Source: Bacteroidota bacterium (GTDB lineage: Bacteria; Bacteroidota; Bacteroidia; Palsa-948). Taken from it: DNA of 61,895 nt. Both the position numbers and the translations under genes were made by a program. The notes under the pieces are model-generated. The model was given only the letters and a program-made list of their open reading frames with translations. It searched no databases and was not told where the DNA came from. This document shows positions 56,047 to 58,674 of this stretch, in pieces. Position 1 is the first letter of the stretch; every line of letters begins with the position of its first letter. Location: assembly GCA_016195025.1 (NCBI GenBank), contig JACQAL010000017.1, positions 1 through 61,895 on the forward strand, read 5' to 3'.

Positions 56047-58605
56047 ATGCTTCGCTTCACTCAACTATTTTTTCTTTCTCTCTGCTTTTTATTTTCCGCT
56101 CCCTGTTCTTTTTCACAGAACATAGATGCGCTTCTTTCCAGAAGTGAAAACGTATTGAAAACAAATTCCGATTCAGCGCTGAACTATGCGTTTCTGGCTG
56201 CCGAAGCAAGCCACCGGCAAAAAGATACGCTTCATATTGCAAAGTCCTACCAGAAAATCGGACTCATTTATGACGACATGGATGATGCCGATAAAGAAGT
56301 TTTTTATTTCCGCAAAGCGTATGAAGCGGCAAAAAACATTTCCGATGCGCATCTGAAAATGGAAATCACGGTGAATGTTGCCGAAGCATTTTTTGATAAA
56401 GGAAATTACGATGAATCATTTCTCTGGTTTAAGAAAGCAAAATCTTTGAGCGGTGAATTAAAAGACAACGGATTGCTTTACCGCATTTATTCCGGCATCG
56501 GGCATATTTTTACGCGAAAAGAATTAAGAAACCTCGACTCGGCAGAAATATATTATACTCTTTCGCGCGCGTTTGCGCTTTTCGCTAAAGATACTTCCAA
56601 CATTGCCGATTATTACCGCAGCATGAATGAGGTCTACGCAGGAAGAAAACAATACGGCAAGAGCGTGGAATATTCAACCAAAGCGCTCGAACTTTTTTCC
56701 GCCATCAAAGATTCGGATGGCATTGCGCAGGTATATACCGACATGGGCGATGTGTTTTATTACACGAAAGAAAATAAAAAGTCAATTGACTATTACACGA
56801 AAGCATACGAAATTCAGAAGAAGAAAAATGCCGTATCGGCAATTTCGGTGGGTGCGGTGAACCTTGCTTATATGTATGCGATGGAAGGGCGAAAGGACTT
56901 GCTCGATTCCTACGGGAAAGAAGCGTATTCGCTCGCGCTGAAAACAAAATCGTGGGAGCGTGTGAAGTATGCCGTGGAATGGCTGGGCGAAGCGTATGAA
57001 AAAACCGGCAACAATGCCAAAGCGCTTTTCTATTTCAAGAAATTAATGTCGGTGAAAGACAGCATCACCAACCGCAGCGCCATTGAAAAAAATTCGCGCG
57101 AAGAATTGCAGGGAGCGTTTGAAGAAAAAATGAAACTCCTGAAACTGGAAGAAGACAAACGCAAAGCCATTGCAGAAGAAAAAGAACATAATCAGAAAAT
57201 TGTTACCACCATTCTCATTATTGGAATTCTTATTGCGCTCACGCTTTTATTTCTTGCTTTCAGAAGTTACATTGCCAAGAAAAAAGCGAACATCATCATC
57301 AGCAGACAAAAAGAAGAAGCCGAAGCGCAAAAACAAAAGATTGAAGAAATAAATAAAGAAATCACCGACAGCATTAACTACGCAAAAATAATTCAGCGCT
57401 CCATTCTTCCCGACCCGGATGAAATCATGAAAGTGTTTCCGGAAAGTTTCGGATTGTATAAACCCAAAAGCGTTGTGAGCGGAGATATCTATTGGTTTCA
57501 CGCTGCCCCCCCTCCCCCCGAAGGGGGGAACACAGAGGGTTTTGGTTACGAAACTGCCGACCCGATGATGTATAAACTGCTAAAAGAATTTGTTACCACA
57601 CATAGAAATGTTCCAACTGAAGCTGAAAATGTTTTTTGGCAGTTGGTGAGAGAGAAAAATACCGGGTATAAATTCAGAAGGCAGCATATCATAGGAGAAT
57701 ACATTGCAGATTTTGTTTGCCTTCAGCAAAAACTTATAGTGGAAATTGACGGGTTGATTCATGCGTTGCCCGAACATAAGAGAAACGATGAACAGCGTAC
57801 GCAATACTTAAACACAATGGGCTTCCATGTTCTTCGATTTACGAATAATGAAGTAATCGGAAATCCTGACGGAGTGATAGATAAACTGATAAAAACAATT
57901 CAAAGCCGTGCTGCTTCGCAAGTTTTCCCCCCTTCGGGGGGAGGGGGGGCAGTATTCATTGCAGCCGTTGATTGCACAGGGCATGGAGTTCCGGGTGCGC
58001 TGATGAGCATGATTGCCATTGAAAAACTAAACGAAGCGGTGGCGAAAAACATTTTCTCTCCTGCTGAAATTCTTTCGCACCTGAACAGGGGAGTAAAATC
58101 ATCGCTCAGGCAAAAAGAGGGCTCTGTTTCAAAAGACGGAATGGACATTGCGCTGGTGCGTTTTGAGAAGCCCCCCCTGCCCCCCAAAGGGGGGAACACA
58201 GGCGCGCAATCTCCCCCCTTCGGGGGGATAAAGGGGGGCTTGGGTGTATTGTATTTCTCAGGCGCCATGCGCCCGTTATGGCTTTTCCGCAACAATGAAC
58301 TCACCGAATACAAACCCACCAAACATTCCATTGGCGGAATTACCCCCGAAGCGCAGCAGTTTATTGAACATGAAATTCAACTTCAGAAAGGCGATACCAT
58401 TTATATTTTCTCCGATGGCTATGCCGACCAGTTTGGAGGCGAGAAAGGAAAAAAACTCATGAGCAAAAACATGAAAGAACTTTTGCTCTCCATTCAGCGC
58501 GCTCCCATGGCGGAACAGGAAAAAATTCTGAATGATAAACTAACGCAATGGCAGGGCGCGTTTGAACAGGTTGACGATGTTTTAGTAATAGGTATCAGGA
58601 TATAA
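56047..58605 (+). CDS. TPR sensor with SpoIIE-type PP2C phosphatase, interrupted by a DUF559 domain
   Basis: 852 residues. A signal peptide (1-24) leads to about seven TPRs (30-345), one membrane helix (about 384-405), a coiled coil (405-440) and a cytosolic PP2C/SpoIIE phosphatase. The phosphatase motifs are KPKSVVSGDIYW (about 472), AAVDCTGHGVPGALMSMI, DGMDIAL and SDGYADQFGG. Such proteins in Bacteroidota relay signals to partner-switching proteins. Residues 486-635 are a foreign insert: a complete DUF559 nuclease domain inside terminal repeats. Residues 709-731 (PPLPPKGG ... PPFGGIKGG) are a second, cargo-free insert. Removing both restores the continuous reading WFHVFIAAVDC and FEKLGVLYF. 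Confidence 0.9.
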   Translation: MLRFTQLFFLSLCFLFSAPCSFSQNIDALLSRSENVLKTNSDSALNYAFLAAEASHRQKDTLHIAKSYQKIGLIYDDMDDADKEVFYFRKAYEAAKNISDAHLKMEITVNVAEAFFDKGNYDESFLWFKKAKSLSGELKDNGLLYRIYSGIGHIFTRKELRNLDSAEIYYTLSRAFALFAKDTSNIADYYRSMNEVYAGRKQYGKSVEYSTKALELFSAIKDSDGIAQVYTDMGDVFYYTKENKKSIDYYTKAYEIQKKKNAVSAISVGAVNLAYMYAMEGRKDLLDSYGKEAYSLALKTKSWERVKYAVEWLGEAYEKTGNNAKALFYFKKLMSVKDSITNRSAIEKNSREELQGAFEEKMKLLKLEEDKRKAIAEEKEHNQKIVTTILIIGILIALTLLFLAFRSYIAKKKANIIISRQKEEAEAQKQKIEEINKEITDSINYAKIIQRSILPDPDEIMKVFPESFGLYKPKSVVSGDIYWFHAAPPPPEGGNTEGFGYETADPMMYKLLKEFVTTHRNVPTEAENVFWQLVREKNTGYKFRRQHIIGEYIADFVCLQQKLIVEIDGLIHALPEHKRNDEQRTQYLNTMGFHVLRFTNNEVIGNPDGVIDKLIKTIQSRAASQVFPPSGGGGAVFIAAVDCTGHGVPGALMSMIAIEKLNEAVAKNIFSPAEILSHLNRGVKSSLRQKEGSVSKDGMDIALVRFEKPPLPPKGGNTGAQSPPFGGIKGGLGVLYFSGAMRPLWLFRNNELTEYKPTKHSIGGITPEAQQFIEHEIQLQKGDTIYIFSDGYADQFGGEKGKKLMSKNMKELLLSIQRAPMAEQEKILNDKLTQWQGAFEQVDDVLVIGIRI
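57503..57952. mobile_element. 450-bp TIR element carrying a DUF559 nuclease domain in frame
   Basis: Perfect 28-bp inverted ends (57503-57530 starting CTGCCCCCCCTCCCCCC, and 57925-57952). Each end also contains a CCCCCC-GAA-GGGGGG hairpin. The cargo is open through the whole element in the host frame and encodes DUF559: EAENVFWQLVRE, GYKFRRQHIIGEYIADFVC, KLIVEIDGLIH and GFHVLRFTNNEV. Asp and Glu-x-Asp fit a PD-(D/E)xK nuclease like Vsr. The length is 150 codons, so it keeps the host frame. No target duplication is clear. Confidence 0.85.
58171..58239. mobile_element. 69-bp cargo-free relative of the DUF559 element
   Basis: Exactly 23 codons, starting CCCCCCCTGCCCCCCAAAGG and ending CCCCCCTTCGGGGGG then ATAAAGGGGGGC. 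It has the same end design as 57503-57952 but only about 15 bp between the hairpins. It is read in frame in the same phosphatase gene. Confidence 0.8.
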
Positions 58606-58612
58606 TACGCAA

Positions 58613-58674
58613 TAACTCACCCTGTCCTTCGGACATCCCTCTCTTTCTGAAAGAGAGGGAATGAGGGTGAGTTA
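58613..58674. repeat. TAACTCACCCT hairpin
   Basis: Perfect 11-bp ends TAACTCACCCT / AGGGTGAGTTA with an inner CCCTCTCTTTC / GAAAGAGAGGG stem. It probably terminates the phosphatase gene. The right end overlaps the sorting-domain remnant below. It is the intact form of the hairpin interrupted at 3999-4206. Confidence 0.8.

Follow-up and report, generated by a model that had tools for sequence, protein, structure and literature searches.

A probable mobile element with inverted hairpin ends and a DUF559 nuclease domain, inserted in frame in a phosphatase gene of a Bacteroidota bacterium

EDxHD homing endonucleases are inserted into conserved genes and are transferred to the same site among relatives, and the example I-Bth0305I (PDB 3r3p) is intron-encoded, consists of multiple domains and has a long target (PMC3943268). 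In REP/RAYT systems (REPtrons and TIRtrons), the gene for a DNA-processing enzyme, an HUH tyrosine transposase, lies between palindromic ends, and many short non-autonomous copies are present as inverted pairs (PMC3733652); the CGTC REPs are said to be without a dedicated transposase (PMC3733652). Rickettsia palindromic elements, which are about 150 bp long, are in-frame palindromic insertions in unrelated protein-coding genes, and a review of them names no mobiliser (PMC10969869). Finally, Vsr, Caulobacter VsrA and Escherichia coli YcjD share a DUF559/Vsr-like fold, and the published accounts that we found treat them as repair-type or unknown nucleases, with no terminal repeats or mobility. 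An earlier prediction places YcjD among the PD-(D/E)XK nucleases (PMC1189080).

Here we analyse a locus in a stretch of 61,895 nucleotides from a Bacteroidota bacterium (hereafter the window), in which a DUF559 domain lies within a phosphatase gene. Its features are as follows.

56047..58605, forward strand: host gene, a TPR/coiled-coil/SpoIIE-type (PP2C) phosphatase (open frame; Pfam TPR and SpoIIE; orthologues L068 and L069)
57503..57952, forward strand: whole DUF559-bearing hairpin-ended element (exactly 450 bp, in frame; not in the closest orthologues)
57503..57533, forward strand: left terminal inverted repeat (31-nt arm; hairpin CCCCCC-GAA-GGGGGG in the 57507-57528 region)
57592..57900, forward strand: DUF559 (PF04480) nuclease domain, EDxHD/Vsr-like (Pfam E=7.7e-32, residues 516-618)
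57922..57952, forward strand: right terminal inverted repeat (hairpin TCCCCCC-TTC-GGGGGGA at 57926-57942)
58168..58241, forward strand: short element without an ORF, second in the phosphatase gene (ends AAGCCCCCC...GGGGGGCTT, of the same kind; recognized from repeats and single-strand fold)

The host ORF encodes 852 amino acids, inserts included, and is free of stops throughout; its codon phase is 57502+3n, and the frame starting at 57503 contains many stops. The two arms of the longer element, which are 31 nt long and spaced 388 nt apart, match at 30 of 31 positions (97% complementary), the first 28 nt perfectly, and each contains a CCCCCC-GAA/TTC-GGGGGG hairpin. When joined via a short artificial spacer and folded as single-strand DNA, the two ends pair over nearly their entire length. 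The original prediction, made from the sequence of the window alone, had described perfect 28-bp inverted ends with hairpins around a stop-free 450 bp with an apparently intact DUF559 domain, and all of this was borne out by the repeats, an ORF scan, the Pfam match and the conservation of invariant residues. It had described only the DUF559 element, however, and overlooked the second palindromic element, at 58168-58241. This short element is in frame, contains two inner inverted hairpins (about 58180-58194 and 58212-58228) and amounts to about 22 extra residues relative to the orthologues L068 and L069; it is an in-frame palindromic insertion in the sense that defines the Rickettsia palindromic elements.

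The DUF559 profile match scores 109.8 bits against a curated cut-off of 20.6, and the only other Pfam match between the element ends is a weak one to the related REase_MTES_1575; TPR and SpoIIE domains surround DUF559 in the host ORF. The window copy retains the family-invariant residues E31, D59, E70, D72, H76 and D85 (numbered from 57535). A structure model of the domain (pLDDT 81) has fold matches to 3hrl (NGO0050), 3r3p (the homing endonuclease I-Bth0305I) and 1cw0 (Vsr). For I-Bth0305I, the family profile gives E 3.4e-7 and Foldseek E 3e-5. The domain is thus predicted to be a nuclease that belongs with the EDxHD/Vsr-like group. In a structure model of the fused phosphatase, confidence is low within the insert. 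A search of a defence-system library returned weak matches only.

With the EDxHD homing endonucleases, the element therefore shares a catalytic domain related by profile and fold, but unlike I-Bth0305I it is intron- and intein-free, has a lone domain, is flanked by hairpin repeats and is kept in frame. Rfam gave no intron match, only sub-threshold hits, and the junctions have no intein signals (no Cys/Ser start and no His-Asn end), the element being open in the host frame; this absence of intein and intron signals suggests that the mature protein retains the insert. In contrast to REP/RAYT systems, the enzyme is an EDxHD/Vsr-like nuclease, with no HUH tyrosine transposase detected by Pfam between the element ends, and the hairpin arms are divided into pyrimidine and purine strands. 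The element also differs from a classical insertion sequence, as it has no transposase domain and no recognized target-site duplication. The likeness to Rickettsia palindromic elements is one of description, and in the present case there is an autonomous form with a nuclease gene. A literature search found no link of DUF559 to flanking palindromes; as most subscription literature and preprints lay outside this search, novelty is provisional.

The best two orthologues of the phosphatase are from the same genus (L068 and L069, 61% and 57% identical), and neither insert is present in them. Their loops at the position of the DUF559 element are longer than the excised gene would have, by several residues (WFKKKSDIG-MIAAADC and WFHKALPSGSKEGL-VFIAAVDC). 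Excision of the element does join WFH to VFIAAVDC, as was predicted, but it does not restore an ordinary orthologue-like PP2C sequence, because the insert replaced several codons of a variable loop. By this comparison, what precise excision leaves is a loop that is plausible but shorter than the ancestral one. The same loop, which varies among orthologues, bears unrelated palindrome-type peptides at exactly this position in two phosphatase paralogues of the genus (SPNGEG in L072 and SPKGEGG in L091), and judging from these it is a recurrent landing place. No target duplication or precise empty site was recognized when the window gene was compared with L068 and L069, or inserted with empty MetH alleles in one genus, because the loops are too variable and the inserts replace a few codons; the empty sites that had been expected to match precise excision thus exist but are imprecise. 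We also found no same-strain polymorphism for the element. Phosphatases of this TPR/SpoIIE type are highly abundant in the genus and in the window's own genome, with 66 matches in the latter.

A genome search for the element ends, one of the checks put forward with the original prediction, gave 16 occurrences of the end pattern (up to 2 mismatches) in the 3.5-Mb genome and 0 of a reversed control, which rules out chance. The genome has seven DUF559 genes, most of which have hairpins of their own. Short palindrome pairs of the window family lie mostly inside ORFs and in frame, in genes for an AIRS-family (SelD-like) protein, queuine tRNA-ribosyltransferase (Tgt), a histidine kinase, saccharopine dehydrogenase, an OmpA-family protein, Fe-S proteins and others. 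As in REP/RAYT systems, then, the palindromes flank an enzyme gene and occur elsewhere as inverted pairs.

To extend the comparison to other bacteria, we gathered 134 DUF559 loci, nearly all from Bacteroidota, of which 125 are non-redundant, and counted GC-rich hairpins whose 5′ arm is pyrimidine and which lie no more than 200 nt from DUF559, with zones at 600-800 nt as controls. Such hairpins are present at 98 of 123 loci, and on both sides at 57, versus 5/119 and 0/119, respectively, in the control zones; about a fifth of DUF559 loci have no hairpin detected nearby. For free-standing DUF559 genes, their density is 4.7 per kb of non-coding sequence near the gene and 0.84 far from it, whereas other GC-rich hairpins change little (0.99 versus 0.63 per kb non-coding). 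In Pseudomonadota, hairpins are found near 26 of 29 DUF559 loci and at 1 of 29 in the far zone. By contrast, genes for the related small nuclease Vsr, in the same sample of 395 genomes, have pyrimidine-armed hairpins at 0 of 28 loci.

The hairpins also vary with their nucleases. The two ends within one locus match above a score of 16 in 42% of cases, compared with 2.2% between loci, and they match each other better than they match ends of the genome's other DUF559 loci (20/44 versus 15/100). Hairpin similarity follows nuclease similarity (Mantel r 0.40, or 0.35 for free-standing copies; 0 of 500 permutations). Whether other DUF559 genes have such ends had been posed as a check, and cognate hairpins in two phyla, with clean negative controls, answer it positively. 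As far as these comparisons reach, the pairing of DUF559 with cognate pyrimidine-armed hairpins is recurrent and specific. The recurrence of the same anatomy across many independent genomes rules out both chance and an assembly artefact. The observations that had been named as contrary to the original prediction were a domain at this site, without terminal repeats, in all orthologues from distant relatives, or DUF559 genes lacking such ends elsewhere; neither was seen. The closest orthologues (L068 and L069) are insert-free, as the comparison of phosphatase genes with and without the insert had anticipated, and DUF559 loci elsewhere are flanked by hairpins.

In-frame DUF559 inserts are found elsewhere in MetH, IleRS, LeuRS (two sites), MetRS, RecG, IcmF, HsdR and others. 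The nuclease tree groups these copies by host gene, with 19 label changes versus 53.1 in shuffles; IleRS, RecG, HsdR and IcmF/MCM form one clade each, and the window copy lies beside the MetH and MetRS copies. In an IleRS pair from Psychroflexus, pS is 0.064 for the insert versus 0.617 for the host gene, or about tenfold less, and identity has reached background by about 60-120 nt from the element. A RecG pair is similar, with 0.029 for the insert versus 0.287 for the host gene. Equal divergence of insert and host in further pairs (e.g. L048/L049) shows that low insert divergence is not a general constraint. The Psychroflexus IleRS and RecG patterns are as would be expected of recent transfer into an already defined site, although these low-divergence pairs come from other host genes and none exists at the window's own site.

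In MetH, inserted and empty alleles are interleaved on the tree of one Flavobacteriaceae-like genus (e.g. L246/L247 and L284/L294). Divergence of insert and host is broadly correlated, with a mild excess in some pairs only. We therefore rejected lateral transfer as a general account of the MetH inserts; because of this correlation, much of their distribution may reflect vertical inheritance with losses or replacements. One MetH gene (L105) has an extra short palindrome-type peptide (LSHPSGGIKGGM) in the left flank of its DUF559 insert, so that there are two insertions in the gene, as in the window. Across inserted DUF559 domains, dN/dS is about 0.06-0.26 where estimable, saturated pairs giving no value, and by this measure the domains are under purifying selection. 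In codons of the terminal repeats, third positions stay GC-rich (Pro 47/77, Gly 62/92), which does not hold for the DUF559 codons between them (7/47 and 17/85). Together, selection and the third-position pattern suggest that both the nuclease and the ends are maintained.

Solo palindromes are also associated with the nuclease. Among 150 Pseudomonadota genomes, counts of the CCCTCTCCC-N(2-8)-GGGAGAGGG hairpin average 35.5 where DUF559 is present versus 1.8 where it is absent, and at least 5 solo palindromes are found in 17 of 30 DUF559-positive versus 6 of 120 DUF559-negative genomes (Fisher p 6e-10, kinship ignored). The corresponding numbers for CCCCTCC-N(2-8)-GGAGGGG in 395 Bacteroidota genomes are 37 of 119 versus 21 of 276 (p 1e-8, kinship ignored). 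In these counts, which were hand-transcribed from result tables, solo palindromes track the presence of DUF559.

The E. coli DUF559 gene ycjD lies between sapF and fabI, and several pyrimidine hairpin repeats come after it, in the following regions.

L301 (E. coli BL21(DE3)), 1977-2698: ycjD hairpin region
L298, 3307-3650: ycjD hairpin region

The repeats beside ycjD appear to resemble the 'box C' repeats, which were reportedly first described close to envM (fabI). One ycjD-associated repeat occurs in 5375 of 5426 E. coli genomes, at a median of 18 places per genome (1-32). The sapF-fabI interval was considered as a clean empty site and rejected, since alleles without ycjD have an SMI1/KNR4 gene or an efflux operon in the same spot (PMC12817139).

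Taken together, these comparisons indicate that 57503-57952 is very probably a mobile element, in which inverted hairpin ends enclose a DUF559 nuclease. As for how it moves, we lean slightly towards a homing-like mechanism driven by the nuclease. Under such a mechanism, the DUF559 nuclease would nick or cut an element-free allele, or a cruciform or hairpin at the target, and repair would copy the element from a donor, so that the element would home to one and the same position of a given gene. Now and then a jump would seed a new site, as in the window phosphatase, and short ORF-less hairpin pairs would move in trans, with the hairpin ends as the probable recognition or processing signal. Insertions would survive in tolerant loops when the frame is kept, and would then form an extra domain of the host protein. 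Catalysis, the mobilising step, hairpin function, target rules and entry to new sites are all inferred here from sequence comparison. The original prediction that the nuclease mobilises the hairpin-ended element is thus partly supported: it has held in its sequence-testable consequences (orthologues without the insert, hairpin pairing, inserts in other genes, solo palindromes, transfer and fold), and no case of precise insertion or excision was seen. The replacement of a few target codons by the insert counts against simple homing, which would not predict it.

The palindromes could instead be moved by another enzyme, such as a RAYT/IS200-like HUH transposase or host repair, leaving DUF559 as a passenger trapped between a pair of palindromes. 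That REP/RAYT systems spread palindromes is established (PMC3733652), the window's own genome has three Y1_Tnp (RAYT-type) genes, and most of its short palindrome pairs are nuclease-free. However, the RAYT genes of this genome have hairpins of another, mixed-sequence kind at their flanks, which makes movement by them less likely, and a passenger would not predict the co-variation of hairpin and nuclease, palindrome counts that track DUF559, or purifying selection; we consider this explanation unlikely. A domain acquired by ordinary fusion, which would make DUF559 a functional part of the phosphatase (e.g. as a regulated nuclease of signalling or defence), would account for the open frame and the intact domain, and purifying selection on DUF559 inserts elsewhere would also fit. 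Yet the two closest same-genus orthologues are DUF559-free, the same cassette is found in functionally unrelated enzymes, the GC-rich third positions of the terminal repeats differ from those of the enclosed codons, and other palindromes occupy the same loop in paralogues, so that such a fusion seems very improbable.

It is also quite unlikely that DUF559 is a Vsr-like repair or clean-up nuclease attracted to or serving hairpins, or that the hairpins regulate mRNA, with nothing self-mobile and same-site transfer due to homologous recombination. The Vsr-like fold would suit such a role, as would the proposal that the Caulobacter DUF559 protein VsrA is a mismatch-repair nuclease (PMC12907096), but classic Vsr genes are without such hairpins (0/28), an in-frame cassette across many unrelated genes is left unexplained, and the tract transferred in Psychroflexus is nearly confined to the element.

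If nuclease-driven mobility is the correct reading, it can be extended beyond this locus. By a narrow balance of the evidence, we favour the proposal that DUF559 nucleases define a large unrecognized class of transposase-free, splicing-free hairpin-ended mobile elements across bacteria, in which a homing-type nuclease and the palindromes that belong to it spread jointly and in frame through essential genes, and of which many orphan palindromes, including those near E. coli ycjD, are non-autonomous derivatives. This would propose a mobiliser for palindromic repeats that lack one, a question that extends to the Rickettsia palindromic elements, and PF04480, abundant but classed as a domain of unknown function, would gain a role. 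It also shows one way in which globular domains can come to lie within conserved enzymes, such as aminoacyl-tRNA synthetases, methionine synthase and RecG, with no splicing involved. Laboratory strains of E. coli, which has ycjD and some 18 related repeats in each genome, allow the idea to be tested directly.

Other hairpins were observed in passing. Two of the RAYT-type genes in the window's own genome (L276 and L277; C68:4428 and C19:1653) have mixed-sequence hairpins of their own (CCGTTGGCTTCAGCCAACGG and CCCCGACATTTATGTCGGGG), distinct from the DUF559 palindromes. Directly past the phosphatase gene, at 58619-58672 of the window, lies a palindrome of a different family (CTCACCCTG...CCCTCTCTTTCTGAAAGAGAGGG...GAGGGTGAG), and one more pyrimidine-armed hairpin, TTCCCTCCCCCGATGGGGGAGGGAA, is present at 1550-1574.
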